Source: Combretum micranthum (lineage: Eukaryota > Streptophyta > Magnoliopsida > Myrtales > Combretaceae). Taken from it: a stretch of DNA of 64,000 nt. Within the stretch, counting starts at the first letter, position 1, and every line of letters starts with the position of its first letter. The stretch covers positions 682,001 to 746,000 of the forward strand of contig JAMXBD010000577.1 of assembly GCA_024138025.1 (NCBI GenBank), given 5' to 3'. Below are positions 212 through 57,457 of this stretch, piece by piece. The position numbers were made by a program, and so were the translations under genes. The notes beneath the pieces are model-generated. The model was not told where the DNA came from. It saw only the letters and a list, made by a program, of their open reading frames with translations, and did no database searches.

Positions 212-259
212 GGTGATTCCGAGGAAGGATACCCATACCCCAAGGACTATTTCGACTAA
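212..259 (+). other. LTR peptide exon, copy in S0
   Basis: After a T-rich tract and an ACTAG acceptor-like site, a 16-codon frame reads GDSEEGYPYPKDYFD followed by TAA. This is the divergent K-D-Y-F-D version of the exon found in eleven LTRs. Downstream lies CATGGCATC|GTGAGT, an ATG beside a donor-like site. Translation is inferred from conservation only. Confidence 0.55.
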
Positions 260-792
260 GTGGATTGTGTGAACGACTCATCCGTTTAGAGAATTGTCGA
301 CATGGCATCGTGAGTTTTCTTGAAATGCTTTACTTTATTGTGCTTGTAGTCTAGTTGCAGTAGACTTAAGAAAAGACAAATGGATATGTATGCAAGAAAA
401 TTTGTTGAAAGGATCCTAAGAATATTAAAGTCGGAATTGATTAAATGTTTGTTTTAGTATAACATTTGATTTTTCTAAAATTATATGATCACCTTAACTT
501 GATAATAATGATGCTATGATATCATAAATAAACTAATTCATGCATACCATGAAGTGAGTCACATTGCATTGGGTTATTATCCTTAGGTGAGAAGGATGGT
601 AGCTTAGGTCGAAAGCAACACTTGGCTAAGTGACCGAAAGCGATTGCTTGGCGACATGGAATTAAATGCTTGGCAGAATGTCCGAAAGCATGGCTCAATT
701 CAAGTAGACTTAATATGCTTGACGGTGTTGATCGAAAGCATACATTTTTTTAACTAAAACTACTTGTTTTGAGGTTACGTATCACTAAACCC

Positions 793-840
793 GAATGGAG
801 GGCGTAAATCCATTCAACATGTAGTTCCCGAAACTATATG
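793..840 (+). ncRNA. Conserved LTR double hairpin, S0 copy
   Basis: Hairpin 1: GAATGGA pairs with TCCATTC around loop GGGCGTAAA. Hairpin 2: CATGTAGTT pairs with AACTATATG (one G-U) around loop CCCGA. Confidence 0.6.
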
Positions 841-1347
841 CCTTGTTTGCTCATGTGTATGTTACATTTCATTGTTTGCTTAAATAACTTGTTTGAATTT
901 CATTTCAAAAAGCCATTTATGGAAATAGTTCTCATTAAGCCTATTAGCTTATACCCCTATAGATATCTTTTGCAGGTCACCTATTTGTGGTTGAGGCCAT
1001 GTGGATCCTGTAGCTAGGTACTTTTCCCTTTAGTTAAGGAATTTCTAGATGAAGTTTAGTGATGGATAAGATGTAGAAATATTCTTGTAATAGATTTGTG
1101 ACTGGAGAATGCCCTTAAGTTTTGTAAGATCATTGTTATGAATAAATGAATATTATGAATCCTCTTTTCTTAATGTGTTATTATATCTTCTTAAGCTTCA
1201 TAATTCTATGTATGGTCCTCTAAATTTGTGAGTGCACGCCTTACACTTAATATCAAAGCTTCTGGGAATGGGTAAGGTTGTCATACTTAAGCTTTAATGT
1301 TAAGTGTGGCGAACTGTTACGTTTAGGGTACCCCTTGGGGCATGACA

Positions 1348-2397
1348 TCCCTTATTTTTCATGCTTATGTTTGTGCTTGTAATTTAGATGCACTAGATTT
1401 ATGAAAAGATAAAGTTGTATGTATTGATAACATGTTGAAAGAATATTAAGCATATCGAGACACATAATGCTTGTGATAAATTGTATGTTTATTAGCACAT
1501 TGGAGTGTCTGAAATTGGTTGATTGCTTGCGAGAAATTGAAATGTAATGGCTAGACTCTAAATAAAAGTTGATGCATGCACTGAATAAGTTGAGTTACAT
1601 TGCATTCACTATTATACAATTGGTGGGTTAAGTGTATGATAGTGGTGGTAAACATAACCAGTATATTATGTATGTGGCAAGTAAGAACCGATAGAAACTA
1701 CATAAATTGATGGCTAGTAGGAGCCGATAATAACTACATGTTTTTATGGCGAATAGGAGTCGGCAAGGTCTATAAAAATGATTTTTTTTTTAAAAAAAGA
1801 AGTGATGGCCGTTATACTTAACCTCAAATGAAGGGCGTAATTCATTCAACATATGATTCCCGGAAAATCATATATCTTGTATGCTCTAGACTTGGTTGTT
1901 ATTTTGTTTTAAGTATGATTATTAAGATTATACTCACTAAGCCCGTGAGCTTATGCCTTTATAGATATTTATATTCACAGGAACACCTGTTTTTGTACCT
2001 GAGGTCTCCTCTTATCCGCGTAAGTTTTCTTTTGGGAGCTTTTGAAGGAAATTTACTTGAAGGATTGACTAGAATTCCTTTAAAATATTTTGATGTAGTA
2101 TTTAAGTTAATGTAAAGACTATTAAGTATTTCGATAATTGGAGTTTTGATAGGGATATGCCCTTAAGAATCATGTAATAGACCTTTAATTGTTATTATTA
2201 TGATCTATTTTATTTCTAGATTCTTGCATGTTCATTATTACTTGCTTAGACCACACTTCCCAAAAGCAATTCCTATTACCGTGTTTGATGCCTTATATGT
2301 GATACCAAGACTTTCACATGACTAAGATAGTCATTTTTAAGTCTTGATATTATATGTGGCGAACTACCATGTTTAGGGTACCCTTCGGGGTGTGACA
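1348..2397 (+). mobile_element. E1 5' LTR, 3' portion
   Basis: This is the LTR directly upstream of the E1 primer site. It ends GGGTACCCTTCGGGGTGTGACA. Its left part is missing because S0 is inserted and the rest is off the window. It contains its own double hairpin (1827-1873) and a TTCACAG|G acceptor-like site near 1981. It is diverged from the truncated E1 3' LTR only in that the two retained portions do not overlap, so they cannot be compared for dating. Confidence 0.75.
1827..1873 (+). ncRNA. Conserved LTR double hairpin, E1 5' LTR copy
   Basis: Hairpin 1: AATGAA pairs with TTCATT around GGGCGTAA, one A shorter than the usual loop. Hairpin 2: ATATGATT pairs perfectly with AATCATAT around CCCGGAA. 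Both stems differ from the S0 copy and pairing is kept. Confidence 0.6.
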
Positions 2398-2405
2398 GTT
2401 TAAGT

Positions 2406-2417
2406 TGGTATAAGAGC
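2406..2417 (+). other. E1 primer binding site (initiator tRNA-Met)
   Basis: TGGTATAAGAGC lies 8 bases after the LTR end. It differs at one base from TGGTATCAGAGC, the complement of the plant initiator tRNA-Met 3' end used by many Ty3/gypsy elements. Confidence 0.75.
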
Positions 2418-2607
2418 AACAAGTTTAAAGGAATAAAGGTAATAGGAATGAATCTAGAAAAGGAAAGGGTAGATAATTTAAAATTAATTAGACATAGACC
2501 TAGACTTAAATAAGTTAGACAAGCTTAGAATTTTCTAAAAAGAGAATTAATGACCTTCCTTGTCTTTTATAGCTTACTCTTGGTGAATTTAGAGCTAAGG
2601 CCAACGT

Positions 2608-3433
2608 TTGAACATGAAGAGTGACGAGACTCTTGTAGACTATCAATTGAAAGTAAGAAGCTTATGTGAGGAGTTTACCCTAGTAGGACGGCTTAGGTCC
2701 GCTCAAGAAATGTATAACATGTGGAGAAGAGGACTCCGTGACACTATATGGGAGTATGTAATTGATGGGTTAAGATATGATGCCACAAGATGCACTAATT
2801 GGACCGACATGGAGGTTATATATGGAATGGAACGGCTCATGTGCTATTAGAACCAAACCCTTATGCTCCAAGAGGTTACGTTCATTTTCCGGAACGATAG
2901 ACATCCAGTCTTCCCCGACTTTCGAACTTGGAATTCCATAGGCCCGGTGGATATCTATGCCTATGATGAGCTAGCTGACCACACTGATTGGGGACAAGTA
3001 GATGAAGAGTCTTACTTCTTTTGGTACAGAGGTTATCAAAATTTATGGCTGCACCCTGATGAACTGCCTCCACCACCATCGTCAAAAGAAGGAAGACGTG
3101 AACAAGTTGAATCTGGAGAAGATATGGAAGGAGCCGAGGAAAGAATGGAAGGAGAAGAAGTGAATCAAGGAACGGAACTCGTAGTGCCACAAGCAAATCA
3201 CGGATGATGTTTCCAACCATCAGGAAGTCAATCATGATTTCGGATAGCCTATCGAACCAACCCCGAATGAGAACATCCCAGATAGAAGCCAATCTCACAC
3301 TCCCCTGCTAAAAGATCAAACCGAGGATGTAAGGATGGAAGAATCCGATGGAGGACATGCACCACGAATGACTTATGATCAAGGGGAACCTAGCACGTCT
3401 AGGAGTCAACCCTCCCATAAGGGAAAAGGATGA
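2608..3433 (+). pseudogene. E1 additional ORF (aORF) upstream of gag
   Basis: This decayed reading frame is homologous to the E2 and E3 aORFs: SDETLVDYQLK here matches EEETLTDYRRR there, and PDFRTW matches the conserved DFRVW. It has an in-frame TAG at 2848-2850, a frameshift near 3203 and another stop near 3248, then a hydrophilic tail ending PSHKGKG before TGA (compare EKGKG in E3). The first half looks like a Gag capsid helical segment (acidic residues, T-x-D-Y, later W-x-R-G-L), so a duplicated, diverged Gag domain is possible. No catalytic motif is seen. The function is unknown. Confidence 0.6.
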
Positions 3434-3905
3434 CAATTCGAAGCTACCTAAGGCAATTCGTAGCAAAAAAGCCAATGATGACTCCTAGCCCCAATCACCG
3501 TGACATGACCCCTTCACGCTGATGGATGACTGAAGAAGGAATGAAGGAAGGATCTACCTGAGAAAATCCCATGTGTCAACTACAATTTTGTAAGCAAATC
3601 GACTTAAGATGTAGGATCGATTAGAAGTTTGATTTATGTTTTCGGAAAGGTGTTTGATGCTATTGTGTTTTGAATTTCTCTTGTAAGCTTTGATTTCTTC
3701 TATGTATGGGTTTCATGTCCTTGAATGATTTTGACTTAATGAAGTATTTTGGTTTGAACAAATTTTATTTCTTGACTTAATTACTTAAATTTCTTTTGTA
3801 TGATGTATTTCTTTATATGATTGAATTATCAAAATTTTCACAATTTCCGTAACTTAGCATGTAAAAGACTTAATAATATGAAATTTACGTAACAAAATTT
3901 AAGAT
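3434..3905 (+). other. E1 spacer between aORF and gag
   Basis: About 470 bases with no supported ORF. E2 and E3 have a similar untranslated gap between aORF and gag (about 270-300 bases). It could hold the gag leader; I see no specific motif. Confidence 0.45.
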
Positions 3906-5263
3906 AGCCGACCTCGAAGAAGACGACCAAGAGAAAGGCGTGCATCGAATAATCCATCTGAGGAAGCAAACTAACTAGAAGTGCCCCCTGTGGCTTCGCC
4001 CCCAAACCTGCAAGGTGATCTACAAGCCATGCTTGGTCAATCAACACAACTTCTAAATGTGTTAGTTCAGCAACAATAAATGAATATGCCACCATCGGCA
4101 CCAGCTCAAGCACCACCCCAACAAGCACCTTAAGCATCCGTACATGGACCAGCACCACCTGATGCTCAATTGCATACCATACTTTTGCCTCCTCCACAAC
4201 CACCCTGACCATATAGGACTTCACTTTTGAACTTCATTAAAAGTAATCATTACTTTGACGGAGCTTTCGGAAAACCAGATGAAGCTGAGGATTGGCTAGC
4301 ATAGATAGAGCGATCTTTTGCCACCTATGAAGTTCCCCATCATCTTCGATTAAGCTATGATACCTACATGTTGAGGTTTAATGCTCGAATCTAGTGGGAG
4401 TCAAAGAATCGAGAGTTGCCACCACCCATCACCTGGGATATGTTTCGAAATGGGTTTTTGGAAAACTATTTCCTGGGAAGTTTAAGAGTGAGGTATAGTG
4501 CGGATTTTGTGCACATGTCTCAAAAGGGAAGATCCATAAAACAGTACGAGACGGAGTTTAATTGATTCTATAGTATGCCCCTAATTCCTTTAAGTATAAT
4601 GAAGAGTTGAAACATCAAGTGTTTCGAAATGGGCTAGATGAAGATTTGAGGATGTGGTTAGAAGAATTTGACATCCATACCTTCAGTGAATTAGTTGAAA
4701 GAGCAAAAATTTTTGAAGGAGCCAAGAAAAGGAAAGGTGGGACTTCTGAGAGAAAAGTACATGTGTTCGGGAAGAAATTTCAACCAGGGACAAGCTCCCA
4801 TTTCCCTTCTAAGAGGTTTAAGTCTATTAGCCACTTTAAGGGAAATTTCAGTGGACGAAAAGATGTTTCTAAGGCAATAGTAACTTGTTGGAAGTGCAAA
4901 GAAGCACACTACTCGAAGGCATGCCCCCTCCTCCAGAACAAATGCTATTTCTGTGGTGCCCGAGCCATAAGATTTTAGATTAGCCAAAGAAGGCTTCTAC
5001 GACTTGTTTTGTATGCAAGCTGATTGGACATTTTGCCAATGAGTGTCCTCAAAGGAAATCTACAACGGTCCTACCTGATGGATCTTCGGGAGGACTTGCT
5101 CTAACAAGAAGTAATGGAAGTGGAAATCACTTGGGATCATCCATGCATGGGCTGAGAATCTACAACCTTGAAGGGCAATGGCTTTGTGAAGATGCTGAAG
5201 AGGAAGGAATGGAATTAGCTGCCCTAGACAATGGAGAGAAGTACGATTATGGCCTAGTTACAG
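3906..5263 (+). pseudogene. gag: E1 gag (capsid-nucleocapsid), degenerate
   Basis: The frame opens with an arginine-rich stretch (RPRRRRPRERR), then a Pro/Gln-rich linker, then the capsid block with YFDGAFGKPDEAEDWLA and LRLSYDTYMLRFNARI, typical of plant Ty3/gypsy Gag. A clean stretch at 4607-4978 covers the capsid end and the first zinc knuckle; the last knuckle at 5005-5046 is an intact CX2CX4HX4C. There are at least six in-frame stops in the first half. The start ATG is not intact. The frame reaches the putative gag-protease intron at 5264. Confidence 0.8.
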
Positions 5264-5618: not shown

Positions 5619-6135
5619 TGTCATGCCCCATAGGAGTATCCTAAACGTAACAGTCCGCCACATACTATATAAGACTCTCGAATTTCTATCCGAGCACTTC
5701 GGGAGTCTTGTATAGATTTAAAGCGTCCCTTTACGACAATAAAATACTCTAATCAATGGAGTTAAGAAGTTTAATGTGGCATTCATTAGCCATAGATAAT
5801 AAACCAAAACACATCTATAAATTACAAAGTCTAAGGGGCATTCCCCCACAAAAATAATATTAAGTCTATTACAATCATCCAGAGTCTTTTGGTTTCCAAC
5901 GGAAGTCTAAACAAAACCGAAGTAAACTTCTAAGAGAAACTCCTAGCTCCGGTACCTGAGCTGTAGCCTGCCTTGGCCTAAGCCAAATGAATTCATGCTA
6001 CAACAAGTAAAAACTATAGGGGCGTAAGCTAACTAGCTTAGTGAGTGAAAACTTCCATATCACAATTATGACAAATCATTCAAGCAAGTGATTATTCAAT
6101 CAAGTGAAATGCATCAAACAAGTGAGTTCAAAAAA

Positions 6136-6183: not shown

Positions 6184-6658
6184 CGGGTTAGCAGATTAAT
6201 GAATCCTGCGGTACGATGCCGTTTAAGCTCATGGTCAACTGAACAATATTTCGTTTTATGGATCACCATTAACCAACATATTCGTTTTATGGATCACGAA
6301 AAATCAACAAATGATAATGCTCCATCCCCATCGTGATATGAATGAGTTCAATTATAATTGAAGTCAAATAATTGAAGTCAAATAATTGATTAATCTAATT
6401 CTTTAAGGTAGCCAAGCAATATTCGCAGACAATCAATTCTAGCTCATCTCTATACAAGCAATAACTTATCACCCGGCTTCGATATTCTTTAAGTTCAACT
6501 TCACATATCAACAACAGAAATTTATAATTCCCAACTAATCCCATCATGCATAATCATTCCTTTTTTCTTTACTTAGCAACCAGTGCAGCTATCATTACAA
6601 TCACAAGCAATAATTGAAATCGGAAGTGATACTCACTCGGCCATGGTACGCCAGTCTC

Positions 6659-6706
6659 TTAATAGTAGTAGTCAGGTGGTAGGGTATCATCGTTCTTGGG
6701 ATCACC
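6659..6706 (-). other. LTR peptide exon, copy in S1
   Basis: Minus-strand frame GDPKNDDTLPPDYYY then TAA, preceded by a TTGGTAG acceptor-like site and followed by ACCATGGCCGA|GTGAGT. Same length and pattern as the other ten copies. Confidence 0.6.
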
Positions 6707-10345: not shown

Positions 10346-10793
10346 TGTCACGCCCCAAGGGTACCCTAGTAGTAATAAACAAGTTACACTTGAATATTAT
10401 CACTAGATTACCTTCAGAGAATGTCAGGTTTTCAAAACAACAGGATCTTTTAAGTTGCTTGATAAGAAATAACAAAATATGAGAGAAATGATTTAGTGAA
10501 TAACCATTACAAACTATTACAAACCATATATCTCGTTGAAGTATACAAACTAAATAATCTACTCTAATAGTACATAACCATCAACTAAAATAGATCTGTA
10601 GGCTTCTAGCTTCAAAACCCTTACCGGAGCCATATTCCTGGATGTAACTAACCAGGGACGTAAAGTGAACCAGAAAAGACTGTAGGAGTATGAGCGAAAC
10701 CACAGCTCAGTGAATAACCAGACATACCATACATCACACAAGTCATTAACCAATCATATGCAATGCAAGCATCAACCGTATGCACAGATACAA

Positions 10794-10843
10794 GTTTGGA
10801 TGATCTAGAATCCAAACAGGAAAAAGATTTACGCCCTCTTTTT
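10794..10843 (-). ncRNA. Conserved LTR double hairpin, E2 3' LTR copy
   Basis: Minus strand: AAAAAGA pairs with TCTTTTT around GGGCGTAAA; then GTTTGGAT pairs perfectly with ATCCAAAC around TCTAGATC, whose TCTAGA is self-complementary. Confidence 0.65.
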
Positions 10844-11434
10844 AATGGGTTGAAGAAAAAACTCAATGACCCACCTGCCCAGGAGAGACTAAGTATATAG
10901 GAGAATCAACGATTTCTCGTTTTAATGTTATCACTTTGAATTAGTGGCTTCCACAAACCATCCCTGCAATCCCTTAGAAACTCCTAAGTATTGATCATTT
11001 CAAAGCAATTCTACGGGCGACGTTCTTCGGTGCTTTTAGTTCCTCATAGGACCGCCAGACCAAAGAGAACCTTGGAAGACTCACACATTGGATCAACCAA
11101 GCAAAAACAGAGATCCGAAATTTAATACGTGGCAGGCTGTCACAACCATATATGCAATAATGCAATTCATGCAATGCATGTCCATATTATTTGGTTAAGT
11201 CCATAATTCTTAGTCAAATTCGGGGTAACCATACATTACACACAATCATCAATATACTATTATACATCACCAACCACTGCGTTATCACTTGTATAAAAAT
11301 ATTTTAGCAATTATACAATCAGATCATATCATACTTTCAACAACCACTCATTTGTTTATCTTGCATTACATATTCAACTATTTACAACCACAATCAGCAC
11401 AATATGACTGAATTACTCACTTGCTCATACCGAC

Positions 11435-11482
11435 TCAGTCGTAGTAGTCCACTGGTAGATCTTCTAATGAGTCAAATTCACC
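11435..11482 (-). other. LTR peptide exon, copy in E2 3' LTR
   Basis: Minus-strand frame GEFDSLEDLPVDYYD then TGA. TAAATAG acceptor-like site before it; GGTATGAGCAA|GTGAGT after it. Confidence 0.65.
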
Positions 11483-11884
11483 TATTTAAAACAAAATATT
11501 CATCAATAAAATCTAGCTAAATTCCTACATGTGCCTTGTGTCCTAGACTCGACATTGATACTTAGTATTGTCGTGTTTTTCCTATTTAATCTCACATAAT
11601 TGTTTGGTTATTTTTAGAAGTCATAATACTCAGGAAATTAACTTATTTCAATTTCCATTCTTATATATTTTATCTTGCTAAAACAAATATTAGACTAATA
11701 TTACTCTAAATATTTTTTTAGTTCTAGGGTTTCAAAAGTTAATAGATATTAATTATAAATAGACTTAATTATTTGTATTAAAGTCACTATCTAATACATA
11801 TTTATATAACATACATATATATATACTTAGTAGATATATTATATATATATAAATTTAGTTTAGGTCAGAAAAGCTTTCATTGGA

Positions 11885-12190
11885 AAAATTTAGCTGTAAG
11901 CCGGCTCAAGGCCGCCGGCCTAAATCTCCAGATGCCGGTGTAAAATCATTTTGAAGAAAAATTTCGTATCGAAAGCACCGGTGTTGAAAACTGCCAGCTT
12001 ACAACGTACGCCGGCCCTACGCTGCCCGCGTAGATCTCCAGGTAGCCGGCTTACGTTGAATCTTTACGTGAAAATTATTTTACGTAGCCTCTGTTCGAGT
12101 GTAAGCCGCCTGTAAGCTGCCGGCCTATCCATGTAAGTCGCCGGCGTACAGCGTTTACACTGCCGGCCTTGAGGCAGTGTTGCACTGTTC
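11885..12190 (-). repeat. GC-rich CCGGC/TAAGCC repeat cluster, E2 3' LTR
   Basis: A GC-rich island in AT-rich DNA, with many imperfect copies of GCCGGC next to GTAAGCC or GCGTA in both orientations. It lies in the putative second LTR intron. Related, more decayed clusters sit in E3 and E4 LTRs. Confidence 0.6.
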
Positions 12191-12372
12191 ATCATCTTCC
12201 TCCTCGGTTCGATTCTTTTTCTTTGATTTTTACACGTTAAAAACTTATTTAAACTACTTCTAAGAGTTGATATATCATATATAAGGATATATAACAACTT
12301 TTAACACGTTTAAAAACATAAATATATAGATTTCGATTTTGTGAAAGTAAAACTAGGGTTTTGAAGTTTTAC

Positions 12373-12427
12373 CTCGTTGGAGCTCTTTGAGTGCAATTCG
12401 AAGCTTGTGTTTGTGTTTATTATGTTC
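12373..12427 (-). other. Putative LTR exon 2, E2 3' LTR
   Basis: 55 bases between acceptor TCCTAG|G and donor CGAG|GTAAAA. In the phase that joins the peptide exon, it is open for 18 codons and ends ...LKELQR before GEFDSLEDLP. E3 exon 2 ends ...SLQLQR in the same position, so this exon is also conserved in frame. Confidence 0.5.
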
Positions 12428-13784
12428 CTAGGATGATTTTAAGTCAGATACAACTCTTATATTTGAACGACAATCCTTTGAATCATGTCAACTTACCTTT
12501 GAGCTCGTTTTTGAGGGTTTTTGGCTCCGTTTTTCCTTTGATCCGAGTTTATGGTTTATGATCTGTTTGTTCTTCGTTTTTAGTTCGATTTGATTGTTGT
12601 TTAGGAGTATTTTCGTGCTGAGGAATGCAAAGATTAACGAGTTTTGGCCTGTTCTCCATTAAGATCACTTATTGCACATATATATAAGAGAAGAAAAGAA
12701 AGAAGTTTCGGTTGCTTTCTCCTCCAATTCTCCCCCGAATTTGTTCTCATCCTGCTGTTATTTTCAAGCCATTAATGGTTAAAGTGACTTGGCAACATGT
12801 GATTGGTGTGGGTGGTTGATTTTTGTGGAAATTTGGTCCATGATTGAAGCAAATCCGGCTCTCCTCTTCTTCTACTTCAACTTGCATCAACTCAGCCGCA
12901 TTTTCCCCACCGAAACAGCAGCCCAATATATATATTAGTTTAATATTCTAATTAAATTTGAGTCAATTATACGAGTTATACGGATATATATAAGCTAATT
13001 TGGAAGTTTTTGTACAAAAATATGCTTATAAATTTATACAAAACACTTAGATTTTCAAATAATACAAATTTAGGTATTATACGTAGTTAATTATTCGTAT
13101 AATTTTATCTCGCGATTTGGATTTCTTAAGCTCATTGGGTCAATTTTTGTTTCAGGCTCCGATAGCTTAAGAAAACTCGGTTTAGAAAATAGCGTGATCC
13201 GATTATTTATTTGAAGTTTAGATTTTGAGTTATTTTCAGTTTATATTTTCGTTGTGTATTTAAAATCTTAATTCATTTTTGGATCATCGTTTTCTAGTTA
13301 TAAGCGTATATGATCATTTATACAGTATTGGCTTCATACAGAAATTAAACTATTTTATATCTTAGTTTTGATACTAAACATAAATTCTTATTAGTAGCTT
13401 TTAAATTTAACTAGGAATCTCAAAATTAGGGTTTAAGTCTAAATATAAACTCATTACTACTCGTTATTCTAGTCTGAATCATTATCGAGATCAAAACAAT
13501 CATTTAATCTTTATATTCACATTTTCTATTTAAATCTATTGTATACTAGGTTTCGGGTCTAGATTTAGATCATATCTTGAATTAGTTATTCAAGACACAA
13601 GATTTCGTTTTCGGTATTAACTAGGGTTAAAGAATCTCTTTATTCGATTCCTAAATCTTTCATTATCCAAAAATCTAAATATTAGCCTATTATTAGACTT
13701 CACTCAGAATCTAAATCTATTATCTAGTTTATATAATCTATTATGAAGTCGGTACTAATGTGAAAAATTCCCGGGGTTTACATT

Positions 13785-13795
13785 CTCCCCCCTTA
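13785..13795 (-). other. E2 polypurine tract
   Basis: Minus-strand TAAGGGGGGAGA directly upstream of the 3' LTR start; the plus-strand DNA primer in this family. Confidence 0.8.
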
Positions 13796-13796
13796 A

Positions 13797-14040
13797 AATA
13801 AGCTTTGTCCTCAAAGCTTGAATGCGTACCTGAGTTTTCAAACAAATGAGGATAGCTTTTCTTGATCTCCTCTTCTAATTCCCATGTAATCTCTTCTGTC
13901 TGTGGATCCCATAATACTTTGATAGTGGATTTCTTTATTCCTGAGAACTTGCACTTTCCGGTCCAAAATCTTAACTGGATGCTTTTCATAAGTCAAATTC
14001 TCCTTCAAATCAATTGGTTCTAATTCCACTATCTTATCTG
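13797..14040 (-). pseudogene. E2 integrase C-terminus with chromodomain
   Basis: Two overlapping frames give the Tekay-type chromodomain: [16 protein letters not shown] then, after a frameshift, KVLWDPQTEEITWELEEEIKKSYPHLF. In chromoviruses this domain steers integration through chromatin marks. The frame ends in the polypurine tract with FEDKAYFKGG, as in E1 and E3. Confidence 0.85.
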
Positions 14041-41905: not shown

Positions 41906-41949
41906 GCATAGGTATCCGGAACCCACACAGAACGGATTTACGCCCTCGT
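41906..41949 (-). ncRNA. Conserved LTR double hairpin, S5 copy
   Basis: Minus strand: ACGA/TCCGT around GGGCGTAAA with one bulge, then GTGTGGGT/ACCTATGC (G-U pairs) around TCCGGAT. Confidence 0.55.
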
Positions 41950-42456: not shown

Positions 42457-42504
42457 CTAGTAATAATAATCCGGTGGTAGGAAATCGTCGAACTCGGGAT
42501 TACC
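42457..42504 (-). other. LTR peptide exon, copy in S5
   Basis: Minus-strand GNPEFDDFLPPDYYY then TAG; CCTTTTTAG before, CCAATGGCCGA|GTGAGT after. Confidence 0.65.
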
Positions 42505-44132
42505 TAAAAAGGAAGAAATACTCTAATAAGTATTTCAACTCAAACATCCAACGACTTCATACGAACTTATCAAATTCGTAATTCGCGTACTAAGCGGGAA
42601 TTCCAACTTAAAACGGCTATACTTGGTCATTTTAACTCGGAATCTCGCAAATTTTATATTGATTTCTATCTACTTCGGAAGAGTTTTCTAAATATGAAGT
42701 TTAAATCAAGTTTTGAAAATATCTAAGCCTCAGAAATGAGGGATCAGATCTGTACAGCGGTAACATAGATTCCAAAATGCGGTTTTCATGAATGCACTTG
42801 AGATTCCTAAGTGTAAAATGAAACTAAATGCAATGGTAATGATTTTCCCTATCATGAATGTCATGATATGAACTCTAATGACTAAGTTCTTATAGTTCTT
42901 TAGGTTTAAAGAATTTACATAAACTTTTCTTAGAAAACCATTTCATATTAATGTTTAACAGTGAGTTTACTACACTTAGTCACACCTACATATTACAAGG
43001 ATTTTCTTTTATGAAAACTCTATTTTGCTTAAAGAATTTTGACCCTCATATTAGTTATATCCTAAGGTTTATTTCTTAAATAAAATCTTCATTTATAACT
43101 TTCAAGTGGGTCCTTTACTAGGGGGTTTCCAAAAATCCGAATTTAGTAAAGTCCATTTTCAAGTTGATTTCTTTAGGAAAAATGTATTCTATACTTAAAA
43201 CTTTAAGTGTTTATTATACCTTTATCCTAAGGACTCTATTTATTTAAGAAAATCATTTTTGAAGTTGGAAAAATAGTGTTTTCTAGCCATCTATCCATTA
43301 TTACGAATTTAGTTGTTAAGACTTTTAACTCTAAATTTCTTTTAGACTTCATCTCGTTTTCACTATTTTCCTTAATAAAACACATTTAGATCCATGAAAA
43401 ATATTGCTAAACATTATCTATTACCTATAGGCTCCATTTCTCTGAAAATATATGTTTAGAAGTTGATAAAGTGTTTTTGACCTAGGTTTACAAAGTCATG
43501 CGAATTTACACAAGTCCATTTCTTGAAAAGTGTTTCCTTTTTGACTTTATTAACTCATGTACCTATAGATCTATATGCTAGGAAGGTTATTTACTAAAGA
43601 CAAAAGCATTAAAAGACTATTATGCACATAAACAAAAATAAGATGAGATCTTAAATGCCTACATGAATATGAGTAGTAAAATGGTAGATCACTATATCAA
43701 GTGCTTAAATAGGTTTTGAAAACACAAAAACTATATTTTTATAAAGATCTTTTGTTCAAAATACTTTTTGATGAAACTCATAAAGCTTTTGGATGAAAGC
43801 TCCTTTAAATACAAGATCTACTTTGTGATGGTTTGGTATTCTTTTTTTGATATTTCCTTGTCCTATCAAGAGATCATGGGGACATATAGTTGGAAATATC
43901 CAAGAATGACCTAGCCATTAAAGGATTTATGAGTAGAAGGAGTAAAAGTTCTTTTACATAGAGTAAAATAGGAGATAAAAGAGAGGGAAACAAGTTGAGT
44001 GTGAGTGTGGGGGGGAAGGCCATGGAGGTCTCGGCCAAAGGGAGAAAGGGGAGTGGAGAGGAGAGAAAAAGAGTGTTTTACCTTTTAGAAAGTTTGAAAA
44101 GTGAAGAATGAAGTGAGAGAGAGAAAAAGTAG

Positions 44133-44140
44133 CTTATATA
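44133..44140 (-). promoter_or_regulatory. LTR TATA box, S5
   Basis: Minus-strand TATATAAG followed by CT-rich leader (TTTTTCTCTCTCTC); same position as in S4. Confidence 0.6.
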
Positions 44141-46121
44141 TTAAATGGAATTAGGTTAAATGGAGAAAGAAAAATTGCAAATTGGAGCATGGAGGGGGGC
44201 CATTTTCGCCGGTCACTATTCATCAAGGGGGAGGAAGTTTGATTTTCAAAATTTTTGTTTTGATTGATTTAACTTGATGTTTGACTTGTCATAACTTGTA
44301 AGGAAAGTTAAGGGACAAAAGTTATGGAGAAAATGAATTGATTTGAGTGATGGTAAGGGTTGAATTTGTAGAGTGTGCTAATAGGTAGACTAGGTGGTAC
44401 TTTGTGAATAGTGAGGAATAGTTGACAAGACAATTTAATTTCCGGTAGTAAGAAATACGAATAAAAAGGCTATAACTGTATTTTTCATAAACCGGAAAAT
44501 TATGAAAATATATTTTTGAAATCCTTATTTTATTTCGATTCAAATGAGTACTCATAAGTAAATTTTTGAAATTCTAGTTCCGGGGCACGCTTTTCTATAA
44601 TGGGTCTCGGGATGACCCGGAATTGAAATTTTCTTAAAATCTGATCTTTTCTTGTTTGAAATATAATCAAGAACTATATTCAAAATTAATTTTTTATAAA
44701 AGCTTATTGGAAACCGAGGAAAAGCCGGAATAGGGTTTCTAAGTCTTTCTCACAAAGCTTGAACTAAACCGGTTTAGGGTTTCATTTTCCGGTTTCGAAG
44801 TTTACTTGATTACTAGGAAACCCGGGTATACATTATAAAAAAAATATATAATAAAATTGTGTAATGAAATAAAATGAATAGTGCAAAAGACTAATCAATT
44901 ACCGGTAGAAATGAAAATACATAAAAAGGTTATAATGTAACTTTTATAACCCGAAAAATTATATAACTGATATATTTAGAAATCTCGTGGAATTACGAGT
45001 CTAACGGTACTAATGGTATATTTTTTATATCAAGCCCGGGATACACTTTTCGAAGTCTGTATCCGAACGGGTTCAAAATAGGTAAAAATTTACCAATCTT
45101 ATGTTTTTAAATAAACTTATATTACTACGAGCTATTCTACATATTTAAACTACCTTTCGGCCTCTAGAGTTAGGGGCGCTAGATTGCGGACTTACACTAT
45201 TGTATTCGGTTAGGGTTTCCGGATGATTTTCCGGTTTAGACCTTTGCCAAATTGGAAACTGAGATTTTCTTTTATACAACGTATTTAGTTTGAGAAATTT
45301 ATTTTAAATTTTATTTTTATAAGTACTTAATATCTCTTACTGCTTTCAGAAATCTGAATTGAATTATTATATCCGGAGTTATATCGGTAATGGTTACCAG
45401 ATATGATTTTCTTGAGTTTGAGTCAAATATCGATTTTGGAATGATTTTGGGGAAATCTTGATTTTTATAATTTTGCTTTTGAAAAAGGATCTTCATAGTG
45501 TTTTGTTTTCGAATTTATTTTTGCTTCGATTTAAGGTTTTATGAACAATTGGTTAACTTAAGGATTATCTAATTTGTTATTTTGTTTCTTGAATTCTTCC
45601 TTCTTAAGATTACGAGATTTCAATTTCTAACTCGTTCTATGATTCTTGAGAGTTTGATTTGATCGTTAGGGCTTTATTGTGATTTCCGTCTCTTAGGATT
45701 ATTAGTCTGGTCGTTTGGGGAATTTCCAAAGTCTATATTTTATTATTGGCAGATAAAGTTTTCTTAATCGTGCCAAAGCCTAATTATGGAATTGGCCTTT
45801 GGTGATTTCCTAATCCTTCAAATTGTCATGTTATGGATTAACTTGCTTTTTAGCAAATTATCACTGTGTTTTATTTTTATCCCGATTTTTATGAATTATA
45901 GATTAGGTAAGCAGTTTATCTTACGTAATGGTTTTTTGGACTTAAGGACTTTTGTAGTCCTTATTTTATTTTTAGATTTTCTCAAGACTAATGAATTCTT
46001 ACTTTCGTTTATATTTCAGGACTCGTTCAAAGTTCGGATTTAATTTGGAGTGATTTTTAGGGTTTATTTTCGAAGTTCATCGTAGAATTATTTACTGAAA
46101 TTTTCCGGGGCTTACAGAAGA

Positions 46122-47290
46122 TCTTCCAACAGATTATTACGATTAAGTCACCATGAACAGGTGAGTAATTCAGTCATATTATATTGTTTGTACTTGCAAA
46201 TAGCTGAAGATGTAATGCAAAGACAGTAATAATAAAATAAATGTTGTGACGGAAAATGTGTTGTGATATGATTGTATGATTGTTAATCTACCATTACAAA
46301 AGTGATAATACAATGATTTGATATTGTGAAGTAATATGATGATGATTGTGTGTAATGTATGATCACCGTGAAATTGAATAAGAACTATTGACTTATTAAA
46401 ATAATCTGTCCATACATTGCACGTACTGCATTATTGCATATATAAACGGGTGACAGCCTACTACGTATTAATATTTCGGTTCTCTGTTAACGCTTGGTTT
46501 TTCTAAAGTATTGGTTCTTCCAAGGTTTTCTTTGTTCCTTGGTTCTACGGGAACTATGTGGTAATGAAGAACGCCGCCCATAGTATCCCTTTGAAATGAT
46601 TAATACTTAGGGAGTTTCTAAGGATAGATACAGGAAATGGTCAGTTAATACTATTATAATTAAAGTGATAACCTTAAAAACGAGAAATCTTTGATTTTCC
46701 TGTATACTTAGTCTCTCCTGGGTAGGTGGGTCATAAAGTAAATGTTAGTCAACCCTAAAAAGAGGGCGTAAATCTTTTTCCTGTGTGGATTCTAGATCAT
46801 CCAAGCTTGTATCTGAGCATATAATTGAGTGATTACATTACATATGATTTGTTAATAATTGTTTGGTTGTGTAATATGTCTGGTTATTCACTAAGTCATG
46901 GTTTCGCTCATACTCCAACAACCTTTTTAGGTTTACACTTCGACCCTAGTTAGTCACTTCCAAGAACATGGCTCCGGTAAAGGCTTAAGAACTGGAAGCC
47001 TATGGATCTACTTGAGATTTATGGTTATGTTTTCTTAGAATAGATTAACTAGTGCTATTTTATTAGTTATGAACTACAAGAAGACTACAGGTTTGTAATA
47101 GTTCTGTGATACTTTATGATTAAGATAGCAGTTATTTACTAATTTATTTTTATATGTATTTATCATTTCTTATCAAAGCAACTAAAAGATCCTAGTATTT
47201 TGGAAAACATGTCACTCTTTGAAGGTAATGTAGTGACAGTATTCAAGTGTGACTTGTCTACTCCTACTAGGATACCCTCGGGGCGTGACA
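46122..47290 (+). mobile_element. E3 5' LTR, segment 3
   Basis: Completes the LTR after S5: end of the peptide exon, ATGAACAG|GTGAGT donor, double hairpin (46757-46806), TTTTTTAG|G acceptor-like site near 46929, and terminus CCCTCGGGGCGTGACA. Confidence 0.92.
46757..46806 (+). ncRNA. Conserved LTR double hairpin, E3 5' LTR copy
   Basis: AAAAAGA/TCTTTTT around GGGCGTAAA, then a GTGTGGAT/ATCCAAGC stem (one mismatch) around TCTAGATC. Confidence 0.6.
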
Positions 47291-47484: not shown

Positions 47485-48408
47485 ACTAATCTTGCTACAT
47501 GCCATATTAGATGGGAGATATTTAGTATGCAGGAAGAGGAGACCCTGACAGATTACAGACGCAGATTGCGAGTCCTGATAGAGGATTTGTATTTATGTAG
47601 GATTACCAAAACCCTAGAGGAGATTCTTAGCACTTGGAAAAGAGGATTACAGCCTTTATTTAAAGGATGGTTATTTCTGATGGAGAGGGCTTTTCCAGAT
47701 AATGGATCAGCTATAGAGAAACTTTATAGATTTGAGAGGTTGATAGTTCAGAAGGAAGGTGATCTAGAGATTGATAACATAGCATTCATAGTCTCGTCTA
47801 GATCTGTGAGACCCAATCCTGTTGATTTTAGAGTTTGGGTATCTATTGGAGGAGGGGCAGTTTATGCTCATGATGTTCGACATGATCACACTCGGATGAG
47901 AGACGATACAGGTTACGATGATTACCGGATGCTTGCACAGGTGAGCAGATGCAACCATTCCAGACGTATCTTGATGAGGAAACCTCTTATTATACCTGAG
48001 ATAGCAGGTGAGTTCCAGTGTCCCCCTTCTATGCAGGATAGAGTAGTGCAGGAGTCGGTTCAGACTACAGTTCATAAAAGAAGTATAACAATGGAGTTGC
48101 TGGATGAAAGAGAAGGAAAGAGTCGAAGGATTGAGATAGAAAAGTATGTCTCCAATTATAATTATGCTAGATGGATCGGGACTGCACATGGAGGGTGGAT
48201 TGAAAGAGATGTACTACCTAATTCTGAGAGTGAGCTGAGGCCTGCACTCAGAGGTATTCGAGTGATGGATACAGATTTGACCCTGGCACCCCCAGGACAT
48301 AGAGACACGAGGATCGATATTAGCGATAGCAGTTCTAAGGGAGAGGATGATTACCCTCAGTTAGGTCCTCAGGAGAAGGGTAAGGGTCGCCTTTATCCTA
48401 GCCCTTGA
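47485..48408 (+). CDS. E3 additional ORF (aORF), intact
   Basis: A single open frame of about 308 codons between primer site and gag, preceded by TTGTGTGCAG, a plausible splice acceptor. It is the only uninterrupted large ORF of an E3 with broken gag and pol. Recognisable blocks: IRWEIFSMQEEETLTDYRRRL (about residues 8-28), ILSTWKRGLQPLFKGWLF, RFERLIVQ, DFRVWVSIGGGAVYAHDVR, a basic segment (KRSITMELLDEREGKSRR), NYARWIGTAHGGWIERD, and an acidic/serine tail ending GKGRLYPSP. It has no signal peptide, membrane segment, or catalytic motif. The first third resembles Gag capsid spacing; a chaperone or Gag-accessory role is conceivable but unproven. First possible ATG within the block is 47527; an upstream exon could supply the start. 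Confidence 0.7.
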   Translation, partial: TNLATCHIRWEIFSMQEEETLTDYRRRLRVLIEDLYLCRITKTLEEILSTWKRGLQPLFKGWLFLMERAFPDNGSAIEKLYRFERLIVQKEGDLEIDNIAFIVSSRSVRPNPVDFRVWVSIGGGAVYAHDVRHDHTRMRDDTGYDDYRMLAQVSRCNHSRRILMRKPLIIPEIAGEFQCPPSMQDRVVQESVQTTVHKRSITMELLDEREGKSRRIEIEKYVSNYNYARWIGTAHGGWIERDVLPNSESELRPALRGIRVMDTDLTLAPPGHRDTRIDISDSSSKGEDDYPQLGPQEKGKGRLYPSP

Positions 48409-50882: not shown

Positions 50883-52250
50883 GTGGATGAAGAAGAAGTG
50901 TTAAGAATGAATAAAAGATTATGTGTGCCACATGATGAAAACTTAAGGAAGGAATTAATGCATGAAGCACATTATTCTGGATATTCTATACATCCAGGAG
51001 AAACAAAGACATACCAAGAGCTGAAAAGTACATATTGGTGGAGTGGAATGAAAAAGGATATTGCAGAATTTGTTGCTAAGTGTGATGTGTGTCAAAGGAT
51101 AAAAGCTGAACACCAAAAACCAGGTGGGTTATTGAAACCATTGCCAATTCCCGAATGGAAATGGGATCAAATTTCCATGGATTTTATGTGCTCACTACCT
51201 AAGACAAGTGCGGGTCATGATGCTGTTTAGGTTATTGTGGATAGACTCACTAAATCAGCTCATTTCTTGCCAATTAACATGACATATCCATTAGAAAAAT
51301 TGGCACGAATATATTTGAAGGAGATTGTGAGATTGCATCGTATATCTGCTAGTATAGTATCATATTGAGATCTACGGTTTGTTTTCAGATTTTAGCAAGG
51401 ATTACAAAAAGCTTTAGGGACCCAATTGAAATTTAGCGCAGCTTATCATCCTCAAACTGATGGACAAACAGAAAGGACCATTCAGACACTGGAGGATATG
51501 TTAAAAGCATGTATTCTAGAGTTCAAAGGAAATTGGGATCAACATTTACCACTAGTGGAATTTGCATACAATAACAGTTACCATTCAAGCATAGAGATGC
51601 CACCTTATGAAGCCTTATATGGTAGAAAGTGCCGGTTACCATTATTCTGGGATAACTTGGAAAAAGTATTGGTTGGACCTGAATTGATTCAAGAAACAAT
51701 TGAAAAGGTTTTAGTAATAAAGCAAAGAATGAAAGCAGCACAAGATAGACAAAAGATTTGGGCAGACTTGAAAAGAAGAGAATTGGAATTTAATGAAGGA
51801 GAACATGTATATTTAAAGATAAGTCCAATCAAAAGTCTTCATGGCAGACAAACAAAAGGAAAGTTAAGTCCTAGATATATTGGACCATTTGAGATATTAG
51901 AACGAGTTGGGAATCTGGCATACCATCTTGCATTGCCACCCAATTTATCTGGTATACATAATGTTTTTCATGTATTGGTTCTACGAAAATATGTACCGAA
52001 TCTAGATAAGATAGTCAAGTTGGAGCCAATTGATTTAAAGGAGAATCTGACTTACGAAAAACATCCAGTTAGAATATTAGACCAGCAAATGCAAGTTCTC
52101 AGGAATAAAGAAATTCATTATGTCAAAGTATTGTGGGATCTCTGAACAGAAGAGATTACATGGGAGCTGGAAGAGGAGATCAAGAAAAACTATCCGCATT
52201 TGTTTGAGAATTCAGGTACGTGCTCAAGCTTTGAGGACAAAGCTTATTTT
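50883..52250 (+). pseudogene. int: E3 integrase and chromodomain
   Basis: 50883-51230 gives the whole HHCC zinc domain (HEAHYSGYSIHPGETKTY..., CDVCQRIK) and first catalytic Asp (SMDFMCSLPKTS). A TAG replaces Trp at 51229; the next block has [13 protein letters not shown], then stops near 51366-51398. 51426-52145 (239 codons) is clean: [57 protein letters not shown], then chromodomain [26 protein letters not shown] at 52143 splits the chromodomain, whose end (EEITWELEEEIKKNYPHLFE) is still readable. Confidence 0.9.
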
Positions 52251-52263: not shown

Positions 52264-53934
52264 TGTAAACCCCGGAAATTTTCCACATTAGTACACTACT
52301 CTAAAGTAGAATGTATGAATTAGTTAATAAACTTAGATTCCAATAAAAACCTATGAATAGATCAATGCATTGAATTTGGCTAGATAAGGATCTAGAAATT
52401 GAATAAGGAACTTCTTTGACCCTAATTGATATCAAAAAACGAGATTTCGTATCTTGAACGGATAATTCAAGATATAATTAAAGGAAATCTAAATTTTCAA
52501 ACCCAAAACTTGTTATACAAATAGATTAAATAGAAAAATATAAATATAGAGATTAAATGGCTGCTTTTGAATTCAGCAATGATTTGAGATTAGAACAATG
52601 AGTAGTAATGAGCCTACGCATGGATTTAAACCCTAAATTCAAGATTCCTAGATAGTATTAAATGCTACTAATAAGATTTCATAATAGGTACCAAAAATTA
52701 AAGATGAATAGATAATTTAGCTTCTATATCAAATGCGATATTAAGTAGTTAATCAACTGCGCTTATAGACAGGAAATGATAACCTAAGGATAAATCATTA
52801 GGATTATAAATACACAATAAAAACATAAACTGATGTATAACTCAAGGTCTAAACTTCAAATGAATAATTGAATCACACTATTGTTCTAATTAGGGATTTT
52901 TTAAGCTATTGGAGCTTAAAACAAAAATTGACCTGATGAGTTTAGGAAACCCTAATCGTGGGCGATAAAATTCTAAAAATAATTAATCACGTAAAGTTAA
53001 AACTTAAAGTTGTATTGTTTGATAATCCAAGTATTTTGTAAAATCCTATAAAAATATTTTTACAAAAACTCTCAAATATTAGCTAATTTGTACCCATATA
53101 ACTTATTAAACTATCCTAAAATTAAGATAATTAACTAATTAAGTATTATTATTTTATTATATGCATGATTTATGGTGCAAATGGTGTAAAATATGTGGCT
53201 GAAATTCTGTCATTTATCCTCAGCCGAAATCAATCCAAATTAAGTCAACAAATGCAACTAAAGTCAAGATAAAATATGTACAAACCAATTAGGAGCTTCC
53301 AAGTCAGCTAAGGGTGTTAAATGCATTAGGATGTGTAATGCAATTTGCATTTTCGGTGGAGACATTGTCCTTAGAAGATCCCTTTGTAGCTGCCTTCTCC
53401 TTCATCATCTATATATATATATATATGTCTTCATAATGAACAAAGAAACAAAACTTTAACATACAACCAAACACCATCTAAAGCTCAAAATTCATGCTTC
53501 CTAACAGCCCATCAAACACACATAGACCACATACAAACAATACCAAAAACAAAACAACAAAATCTATCAAAACTTTGGCTTAAGCTCGGATTAAGGAAGA
53601 ACAAGGTAAGACAAATCTGTTTTAAGTTGTTTTAGGTATTGAACTCTAATCCAAATAACTTTTTCATTAATTTTGGATCGAAACAAACTCTAGAATTAAG
53701 CTCAAAACGTTCACTTCAGCTCCAACAAGGTAAAAATTAAAAAACCCTAGTTATACCTTTCTAAAATTTGAAAATTTAAGCTTTCATACTTGTAGATGCG
53801 TTATGAGTTGATGTATGTATATATACATGATATAGAAACACTTAGGAATGGTTTAAGAATGCTTTTGACGTAGAAAATTCAAGAAATATGAACTGTTTCA
53901 TCGGGGAAGATGATGAACAGTGCTAACTCTGTCC

Positions 53935-54225
53935 ATAAACCGACAGTGTAAACATCTAAAGTCGGCGGCTTACAAGGGTAGGCCGGCGGTGTAGAGACGG
54001 CTTACACTGGAACAGAAGTTACGGAAAACTTATTTTCACGTTACATGAGCAAACGCCGGCTATTTGGGATTTTACGGTGGCAACATATAGTCCGGTGTAC
54101 CTGGAAACGCTGGCAGCCTACAAGCCAGTGTACCCGATATGAAATTTTATTTAAAACAAAATAACACCGGTGCCTGGGTTTCACCGCCTGTGGCATTTGA
54201 GCAGGCGTACACCCACGTTTCTTCT
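53935..54225 (+). repeat. GC-rich repeat cluster, E3 3' LTR
   Basis: Partner of 40556-40845, also partly decayed at CG sites. Confidence 0.55.
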
Positions 54226-54732
54226 ACGGGAAGTTTGTATTACATAAACAGTATATATATATACATATACAATAAATACTACTAAATATATATTATATAT
54301 ATGTCAACATATAATTTATTAAGTAGATAACTAAATACAAACATTTAGAATAAATTTAAGTAATATTTGATAAGTCTTAAAACCTTAAAATTAGAGAAAA
54401 ATATTAAGTGTTAATAACAACAATAAATAATCAAATATATGTTCTTTGCAAATAAAATAGGTAAGAATGAAAATTGAAATAAGCTAAATTTACAAATAAT
54501 GTGACTTCTAAAAATGACAAAATAGTTATACAAAATAATTTAGGAGAAACATGATGACACTAAGTAATAATAAACAAATATGATTTACTATATTGAGTCA
54601 GGTATGGAATAACATAAAATTATTATTAATCACTACAAAACTTGATAAATATCAGCTTACGACACTAGACATGTATAGGAATTTAGCTATATAGTCTATA
54701 TTATATTGATGAATACTTTATTCATATCAATA

Positions 54733-54780
54733 GGTGACTTTGATACCATAGAAGATCTTCCGACGGATTATTACGATTAA
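54733..54780 (+). other. LTR peptide exon, E3 3' LTR
   Basis: AATAG acceptor-like site, GDFDTIEDLPTDYYD then TAA, then ACCATGAGCAG|GTGAGT. Identical peptide to the 5' LTR copy in spite of nucleotide differences (CCGACG versus CCAACA). Confidence 0.68.
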
Positions 54781-55751
54781 ATCACCATGAGCAGGTGAGT
54801 AATTCAGTCATATTATACTGTTTGTACTTACAAATAGCTAAAGATGTAATGCAAAGACAGTAATAATAAAATGAATGTTGTGACGGAAAATGTGTTGTGA
54901 TATGATTGTATGATTATTAATCTACCATTACAAAAGTGATAATACAATGATTTGATGTTGTGAAGTAATATGATGATGATTGTGTGTAATGTATGATCAC
55001 CATGAGATTGCATAAGAACTATTGACTTATTAAAATAATCTGGTCATTGTAAACCCTGGTTTTTCTAGTAACTAAGATGACTCGAGAACCGGAAACCAAA
55101 ACCCTAAACCGAAATAGCTTAAGATGGGAGTGAGACCTAGGAGCCCTAAATCCGACTTTTCCTTGGTTTCCAATTAAGAAAATTTTTAAAGAAAAATTGA
55201 TATTGAATATAGTTCTTGAATATATTTCAAACCAAGAAAAGATTAGATTTTGAGAAAATTTCAATTCCGGGCCTTTCGAAGACCTGTTACAGAAAAGCGT
55301 GCCACGAAACTTGAATTTCGAAAAATTACTTGTGAATACTCATTTGAATCAAAATTAAATAAGGATTTCAAAAATATGAATTTCATAATTTTTTGGTTTA
55401 TGAAAAATCAGTTAGTAGTCTTTTTATTCGTATTTTTCTTACTACCGGTAATTAAGTTGTCTTGATTACTATTCATTACTATTCACAAGTACAACCACTA
55501 CACTCACAACACCACAAATTACCCTACTCTTACATCCTTACAAACACTCCATTACATTTTCTTTTCCAAGAATTATTTGTCTCTAAATAATTATTACCAT
55601 TTATGACTTTTAATACACAAACCTATCAAACAAATTAAAAAAAATCAAACACTCTCCCTCCATGCAATGGCCGGCGTGATCCTCCCCAATTTAGCTCCAT
55701 TTGTGTAATTTTTTTTATTTATTTTATCTCATTTAACCTAATTCCACTTCA

Positions 55752-55759
55752 TATATAAA
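55752..55759 (+). promoter_or_regulatory. LTR TATA box, S6
   Basis: TATATAAA followed by a CTCTCTCTCT tract, matching S4 and S5. Confidence 0.6.
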
Positions 55760-57409
55760 CCACTTTTTCTCTCTCTCTCTTCATTCTTCTCATTTCAAAT
55801 TTTACTAAGGTAGAAAACACTCTCTTTTTCTCTCCTCCCCACTCCTATTGCCATGAGCTTCATGGCTCCACACACACACAAAAAAAACACTTTTCTTCTT
55901 CCTTTTGTCTTCTATTTTGACCTTAAGTAAAAGAACTTTACTTCTTTTACCTTTAGATCCTTATAATGGCAAGGATATTCTTGTGTATTTTCATTTAAGA
56001 TCCCCATGAGCTCTTGCTAGGGACAAGAAAATACCAATACAAGAATACCAAACCATCACAAGAGTGGATCTAGCATTTAAACAAGCTTTCATGCCATGAG
56101 CTTCATGATCATCCATCTAAAAGTTGTTTTGAACAAAAGACCTTTCATAAAAATATAGTTTTTATGTTTTCAAAACCTATTTAAGTATTTAAGATGGTAG
56201 ATCTATCATTTCACCATCCATATTCATGTAAGCATTTAAGATCTCATCTCTATTTTGAGTTTGTGTGCATTAATAGTCATCAAGACCTTTGTCTTGAGTA
56301 AATAAGCTTGCTAGTATATAGATCTCTAGGTAGATGAGTTAAGGAAACCAAAAAGGAAAGCTCTTTTCAAGAAATGAAATAGGGTAAATTCGGATGACAT
56401 GGAAAACCTAGCTTAAAAACCCTTTTATTAACTTCAAAACATATATTTTACAAGAAAAATGAAGCCTATAGGTGATATATGATGTTTGATGATAATTTTC
56501 ATGAGTTTAAATGAGTTTTTACCAAGGAAAATATTTAAAACAAGAGATGACGTCAAATAGAAATTTTGGGTTGAAAGTTCTTGTAGGGAAAATTCGTAAT
56601 ACTCAATAGGTGGTTAGAAAACACTAGTTTTCCAACCTCAAAAATGGTATTTTATTAAATAAATAAATTCCTTAGGGTATAGATAAAGTAAATACCTAAA
56701 TTTCTATGTATAAAATGCATTTTTCTTAAGAGAATCAACTTAAGAATGAGTTTTACAAAATTCGGATTTTTGGATCAATCCTATTATAAGAATCATTTAT
56801 AAGTTTACAAATGAAGATTTAATTAAAGAAATAAAGACCTTAGGATATAGTTAATGTAAGGGTCAAGTTTTCTTTATAGTAAATAGAATTTTCCTAAGGA
56901 AAATCCTTAGAACAAGTAAGAGTGACTAAGTGTATCAAATCTACTAGTTAACAAATGGCATGAAATGGTTTCCTAAAATAAAGGTTATTTAAATTCTTTT
57001 AATCTATAAATTTATAAGAACTTAGGCACATAAGAATTCATATCATGACATTCATGATAGGTAAATTCATTACCATGGCATTTATTTTCATTCTACACTT
57101 AGGAACCTCAAGAGCATTCATGAAAATCACATTTTTGGAAATCAACATACCTACTGGTCAGAACTGATCTTTCATTTCCGAGACTTAAATGTTTTCAAAA
57201 CTTAATTTAAACAATATGTTTAGAAAGCTCTTTCGAAGTAGATAGAAATCGATATAAAATTTACGAAATTTCAAGTTAAAACGACAAAGTTATGACCATT
57301 TTAAATCGGGACTTCGGAAATGACGCGAATTTCGGTTTCACTAAGTTGTCTTAGAGTTTTGGTATTCTTAGATGGTAGAATACTTATTAGGGTGTTTCTT
57401 TTGTGTTTA

Positions 57410-57457
57410 GGCGAACCCGAGGACGTCGAGTCTTTACCCCCGGATTATTACTACTAA
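57410..57457 (+). other. LTR peptide exon, copy in S6
   Basis: TGTTTAG acceptor-like site, GEPEDVESLPPDYYY then TAA, then CCAATGGCGGA|GTGAGT. Confidence 0.65.

Follow-up and report, generated by a model that had tools for sequence, protein, structure and literature searches.

A selected 15-codon frame in Tekay-type long terminal repeats and its candidate role as an internal exon shared by the 5′aORF and pol

Several plant long terminal repeat (LTR) retrotransposons carry an extra open reading frame (ORF) between the 5′ LTR and gag. In sunflower Tekay group 2, this ORF is present in 500 of 523 elements (PMC11728184), and in rice, the ORF0 of Retrosat2 likewise lies upstream of gag, as does an extra ORF in RIRE3 and RIRE8 (PMC3485330). 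Here we describe nested Tekay-type chromovirus elements and solo LTRs in a 64,000-nucleotide (nt) stretch of the Combretum micranthum genome (assembly GCA_024138025.1, contig JAMXBD010000577.1, positions 682,001 to 746,000, forward strand), referred to below as the window. They resemble the sunflower and rice elements in their long LTRs, which exceed 3 kb in Retrosat2, and in having an extra ORF, without a Pfam domain, that lies upstream of gag and downstream of the 5′ LTR; the LTR ends of Retrosat2 read GGGCGTGACA, as in the window. The sunflower and rice ORFs are described as a single frame, splicing of LTR exons is absent from the passages concerned (the main text of PMC11728184 never uses the string “splic”, and PMC3485330 has it once), and the likeness is drawn from their descriptions. 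Our subject is a 15-codon frame that recurs in the Combretum LTRs. On balance, we favor the view that it belongs to an internal LTR exon that two coding units would share, one using it to open the extra ORF and the other to close pol.

Other described systems share parts of this arrangement. In CRM and some Reina elements, gag-pol reads on into the 3′ LTR (PMC3605345), and the pol C terminus in the window would similarly be encoded inside the 3′ LTR; CRM and Reina do this in a contiguous frame, whereas the Combretum elements would need a splice that skips the polypurine tract and U3. Ogre, BARE1, and EVD use splicing inside gag-pol to make subgenomic or alternative mRNAs (PMC6317226, PMC3735527, PMC12786077), as we propose for the Combretum elements, but their introns, in the passages available, are placed inside gag or pol or at the border of the two and involve no LTR coding exon. 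A review of December 2025 describes plant LTR elements as generally intronless, with exceptions that include Ogre and EVD, and the parts of a review of extra ORFs that we drew on deal mainly with ORFs between pol and the 3′ LTR (PMC7264820). Cer1 of Caenorhabditis elegans, cited in PMC12786077, makes an accessory nuclear protein from a spliced mRNA and is a candidate functional analog of the Combretum ORF, by description only. An extra ORF upstream of gag is already known, and the new part seems to be the proposed LTR coding exons together with a spliced integrase tail. The literature searched, in part as excerpts, holds no report of either in plant chromoviruses; an earlier description in the surveys of extra ORFs is possible.

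The 15-codon frame and the exon that carries it

An initial annotation of the window reported eleven LTR copies of a frame of fixed length, 15 codons and a stop, behind a T-rich, AG acceptor-like site. We found ten intact copies, at 212 (plus strand), 6659 (minus), 11435 (minus), 21155 (minus), 27657 (plus), 30366 (minus), 38327 (plus), 42457 (minus), 54733 (plus), and 57410 (plus). The eleventh (41353/46122), in the 5′ LTR of element B, is split inside the frame by a nested LTR (41375–46116) and is intact once the flanks are joined. Every intact copy has exactly 15 codons, followed by TAA, TAG, or TGA, and the fixed length, stop, and acceptor were borne out. When 100 windows were simulated under a first-order Markov null, the pattern of the 15-mer was matched once, compared with the 10 matches observed; the copies are homologous, and this comparison supports the reality of the feature, not the independence of its copies.

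The 15-codon frame is under purifying selection, as had been suggested. Across four phylogenetically separate pairs of copies in the window, we counted 20 synonymous and 15 nonsynonymous changes, with 24.9 nonsynonymous changes expected (P = 0.00025, 1 in 4000 simulations). The other two frames of the block gave synonymous-to-nonsynonymous counts of 6:25 and 8:21, with no excess of synonymous change. Two of the pairs were significant singly, namely, A-B (P = 0.014) and F3a-F3b (P = 0.009), with ratios of nonsynonymous to synonymous change (pN/pS) of 0.16 and 0.19, respectively; the remaining two, which hold few changes, were not (P = 0.28 and 0.15).

While the frame itself was correctly recognized, the earlier account left out the conserved 3′ end of the block. 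In all ten intact copies, a spacer of 6, 14, 15, or 42 nt separates the stop from an ATG, which precedes five further bases and a perfect GTGAGT donor. The 15 codons hold a constant phase, phase 1, relative to the acceptor, and the spacer between their stop and the ATG varies in length and phase. Since one frame is anchored at the acceptor, the other at the donor, and the spacer between them is variable, the block holds two frames rather than one, and the ATG and donor at its 3′ end mark the exon (exon 2) as internal rather than terminal.

In the LTRs of elements A and B, exon 2 lies 2.3 to 2.5 kb in. It occupies 11421–11481 (minus) in the 3′ LTR and 21141–21201 (minus) in the 5′ LTR of element A and 54734–54794 (plus) in the 3′ LTR of element B, where 15 codons and TAA are followed by a 6-nt spacer and ATGAGCAG before GTGAGT. 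The first half of the split frame in the 5′ LTR of element B is at 41353–41375 (plus), and the second half resumes from about 46117, past the nested LTR. The other copies are F1a (213–309, plus; 15 codons and TAA, a 42-nt spacer, and ATGGCATC before GTGAGT), F1b (30316–30412, minus), F2a (38328–38397, plus), F2b (42434–42503, minus), F2c (27658–27726, plus), F3a (6637–6705, minus), and F3b (57411–57480, plus). A hairpin stands directly before the exon 2 acceptor, for example, at 38290–38326 and 54704–54733 (z scores of −2.54, −3.58, −1.03, and −2.77 for the four family sequences folded), and we speculate that it may control splicing.

A candidate start for the upstream ORF

Between the 5′ LTR and gag, the elements carry an extra sense ORF under coding constraint, as do elements with a 5′aORF or ORF0. 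The body of this aORF, here called exon 4, lies at 47485–48408 (plus) in element B, where the acceptor TGCAG is followed by ACT, and at 18950–19866 (minus) in element A, where the frame of this copy is broken. Comparison of the two bodies gave 58 synonymous and 24 nonsynonymous changes, while 300 simulated runs averaged 57.9 nonsynonymous changes and never gave fewer than 45. Two database relatives were found, P0001 (41%, whole query) and P0002 (69% over 44%). The aORF had no Pfam match up to an E value of 10, P0001 matched none of the PDB sequences, the viral and genome contigs searched yielded no relatives, and the whole window had no Rfam match at gathering scores. Structure models of the aORF reached a mean predicted local distance difference test (pLDDT) of 37.7 and 40.2, values too low to support a fold comparison. 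The possibility that the aORF is a second gag was rejected, as hhalign found no match to the gag of element A.

A further exon near the 3′ end of the LTR, exon 3, carries on the frame of the exon 2 ATG. Ten of its 11 copies keep a length of 1 mod 3 (55, 58, 82, or 85 nt), the exception being F2a with 84 nt; an AG acceptor is present in 10 of 11 copies and a donor starting with GTA in 9 of 11. The phases agree at the next junction, with phase 0 both at the end of exon 3 and at TGCAG|ACT, where the aORF body begins. Reading from the exon 2 ATG yields MSSLFRFTLRPWLVTSRNMAP in A and MADFFLLQLPNIWLRQRHPTAL in F3b. The ATG frame is open in five of the 11 exon 3 copies: Aa and Ab of element A (3′ LTR, 10625–10679, minus; 5′ LTR, 20349–20403, minus, ending in ATGGCTCCG and then GTAAGG), F2b (41706–41790, minus), F2c (28385–28466, plus), and F3b (58087–58144, plus). 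Between A and B3, exon 3 shows 7 synonymous changes to 1 nonsynonymous change in the ATG frame and 1:9 and 2:8 in the others; between F3a and F3b, the counts are 11.5:12.5 in the ATG frame and 4.5:17.5 and 3.5:20.5 in the others. This codon signal argues that translation would start farther upstream, in exon 2. An acceptor 9 nt further into exon 3 of A and B was also considered and dropped, because only the upstream acceptor holds the other families in the ATG frame; in A and B, both acceptors yield an identical frame.

Upstream of exon 2, we placed a TATA box in seven of the eight LTR copies scanned and none in the eighth, F1b. Leader exons with strong donors are found in Ab, B3, and F2a. In the 3′ LTR of element B, the TATA box and leader exon span 53410–53605 (plus), the exon ending in AACAAG and then GTAAGA; the TATA box and start site were placed by eye. 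At the other end of the proposed chain, the letters upstream of the aORF acceptor in B and P0001 fall in another frame (SCKF..), as is expected of the end of an intron.

We propose that RNA from the TATA promoter of the 5′ LTR would be spliced from exon 1 to exon 2 and exon 3, all within the LTR, and then to exon 4, the aORF body. The ATG of the ATG NNN NN motif before GTGAGT would be the aORF start codon, and the LTR would encode the first 20 to 30 residues. This ATG half of the scheme is well supported, and it is very likely that the LTR supplies the N terminus of the aORF protein through splicing.

Several other features lie near these exons. A small stem precedes the exon 3 acceptor, for example, at 58069–58086 and 20403–20425, and reads TAAGC..GCTTA in the F families and TGAGC..GCTCA in A; paired changes are visible by eye, and the folding z scores are weak (−1.60, −0.30, and −0.93). 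The intron between exons 2 and 3, in the 3′ third of the LTR, contains the block GAGGGCGTAAATC or a near variant in all families. In the F2 and F3 LTRs, 3′ of the exon 1 donor, ATTCTTG..TATTT.C pairs with an arm G.AAATA..AAGAAT about 50 nt on, again with paired changes by eye, and by their location these arms recall a retroviral packaging signal.

A candidate end for pol and the competing explanations

Any exon placed upstream of the 15 codons to supply their start would have to end in phase 1. When eight LTR copies were scanned for a start exon in the leader, with an ATG and a good phase 1 donor, none was found in the two A copies, and the candidates in the other six were shared neither in position nor in sequence (by eye). 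A phase 1 donor-like sequence, G|GTACG, is present at all three pol ends: FENSG|GTACG in element A (13830–13850, minus; the exon would end at 13830) and in element B (52195–52215, plus; the exon would end at 52215) and FEELG|GTACG at a third pol end (33657–33677, plus; the exon would end at 33677). These donors rank at the 99.1, 99.7, and 97.6 percentiles among all GT sites of the window, under a scoring matrix. Exon 2 starts with GT, GA, or GC, and thus its first codon would remain Gly after joining to the pol end. No contiguous pol frame reaches the exon, the frame ending close to where the LTR begins in B and no more than about 50 nt from that point in A.

Integrase relatives give a further view of this boundary. 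We considered the best 120 of at least 7,998 scored, 97 of which have a recognizable YPxLF end. Among these listed matches, 33 tails have a scorable Gly soon past YPxLF, and 25 of them place M, T, K, or N directly after it, whereas M, T, K, N, or I follows 31% of the other glycines (nominal P of 1e-7; the relatives are not independent). M, T, K, and N are encoded by codons beginning with A, the base that G|GTA would supply there. Sixteen of the listed tails run on for six or more residues, 6 of them in the “FED” frame, 8 in the “FxG” frame, and 2 in neither; the closest listed relative, P0003 (78%), ends in LFEESGKF. Conservation of the frame in the relatives seems to end at G|GTA, which fits the start of an intron.

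The pol end is the best-supported in-phase partner, and the 15 codons are probably an alternative, spliced integrase tail, a judgment that we place only slightly on the favorable side of even. The donor at the pol end (LFExxG|GTACG) would be joined to exon 2 in the 3′ LTR, giving pol a C-terminal tail after the integrase chromodomain. Such a splice would remove the polypurine tract and U3, and the resulting mRNA would be unable to serve as a genome. Between the pol end and the polypurine tract stands an 8-bp stem with the loop AGGA (52222–52250, 13795–13822, and 33688–33715), with a paired change between A/B and the third pol end (z scores of −1.90 and −0.11).

Several observations weigh against an exon with two coding roles. 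The synonymous excess in the 15 codons is weaker across distant families (pN/pS of 0.34 to 0.99). Exon 3 is broken in six of its 11 copies: a stop falls in the last codon in F1a (963–1017, plus), F1b (29606–29660, minus) and F3a (5956–6013, minus) have one stop each, as do both LTRs of element B (5′ LTR, 46922–46976, plus, where the acceptor AG is also lost; 3′ LTR, 58996–59050, plus), and the frame is lost in F2a (39051–39134, plus). In A and P0002, the aORF frame runs upstream of the acceptor to an ATG (MQILLCVQ|), at which an unspliced aORF could start. Of the pol ends, the third is degenerate. The pol-tail evidence from the relatives is protein rather than DNA, and loss of frame would be expected of a dispensable tail as well. 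Finally, Ab has a leader frame of matching phase that stays open through 53 codons to a strong donor, albeit without an ATG.

The open Ab frame also bears on the strongest alternative, in which the 15 codons would be the conserved end of an upstream ORF (uORF) in a spliced leader, and the peptide, or its stop 6 to 42 nt before the aORF ATG, would control reinitiation or stall ribosomes. The stop does lie close upstream of the ATG in all ten intact copies. However, the leaders share no in-phase ATG from which a conserved-peptide uORF could begin (non-AUG starts being possible), the scan for start exons tells against it in both A copies and in the unshared candidates of the others, and no ATG falls between the TATA box and the donor of the F2a leader exon 1 (by eye). 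We consider a uORF unlikely.

Still less probable is the model of the initial annotation, in which the LTR alone encodes a small protein, with the frame as its C-terminal exon and an N-terminal exon also in the LTR. Selection on the 15 codons and the phase-locked acceptor agree with it, and the frame is indeed of a C-terminal type. Its status as the last exon is not supported, because a canonical donor and the start of a second ORF adjoin it and would be left unexplained, and neither is coding by the LTR alone, in that no N-terminal exon, and no shared start exon, was found in the LTR copies scanned. That the block encodes no peptide and is instead maintained as a splicing or RNA element, its codon pattern arising by chance in copies that are few and related, is the least plausible reading, for although the exon ends and the hairpin before the acceptor are kept, the third-position excess is confined to one frame over four separate pairs, and length and stop are fixed while all three stop codons occur.

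The nested elements and the proposed use of their LTRs

Element A lies on the minus strand, with LTRs at about 10346–13772 and 20068–23510. Element B lies on the plus strand; its 5′ LTR is in three pieces within 34184–47290, its 3′ LTR consists of 52264–55047 and 58485–59366, and both are broken up by inserted LTRs. Inside the 5′ LTR are two solo LTRs of one family in opposite orientations (41375–46116, which interrupts the 15-codon frame, and 34748–39459), flanked by the duplications GAAGA and CATAA (by eye). The elements have the layout of a Tekay-type chromovirus, with gag (PF03732), pol with integrase (C-terminal domain, PF24626) and a chromodomain-type tail at its end, and then the polypurine tract, the last two recognized by eye. 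Their closest integrase relatives among the matches listed are plant chromovirus integrases; the clade name Tekay is provisional and follows these relatives rather than a tree. Directly after the 5′ LTR, at the position of the primer site, stands TGGTATCAGAGC, a candidate for the initiator tRNA-Met type. We located the ends of the LTRs, the polypurine tract, and the primer site by eye. A degenerate element without exon 2 lies behind a truncated LTR at 2405–5100, with gag at 4215–4562, and a degenerate, distant aORF copy is found at 2608–2985 (31%, E value of 6e-13).

From the frames, phases, selection, and splice motifs read directly in the window, we infer splicing and the making of two products. 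One primary RNA would arise from the 5′ LTR promoter. Left unspliced, it would act as the genome and also yield gag-pol; spliced via LTR exons 1, 2, and 3, it would give the aORF protein, and spliced from the pol end to exon 2 of the 3′ LTR, it would give pol with a 15-residue tail. In its full form, which we advance tentatively and rate a little short of even, one LTR exon would be used twice, starting the aORF in the 5′ LTR and ending pol with a conserved acidic, aromatic tail in the 3′ LTR. Integrase would then exist in two forms, from genome-type RNA and from spliced mRNA, and long LTRs would be kept for their coding exons.

LTRs are mostly taken as noncoding control DNA, and those described here apparently contain protein-coding exons as well. 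If LTR exons provide the first residues of the aORF, published single-frame models of this ORF would lack the true N terminus. The chromodomain is thought to steer integration, and if pol ends in the LTR, integrase models would lack a conserved tail beside it. If true, the scheme would offer a way for one element to separate the RNA for translation from the RNA for the genome, and a reason for an LTR length of 3 to 5 kb.

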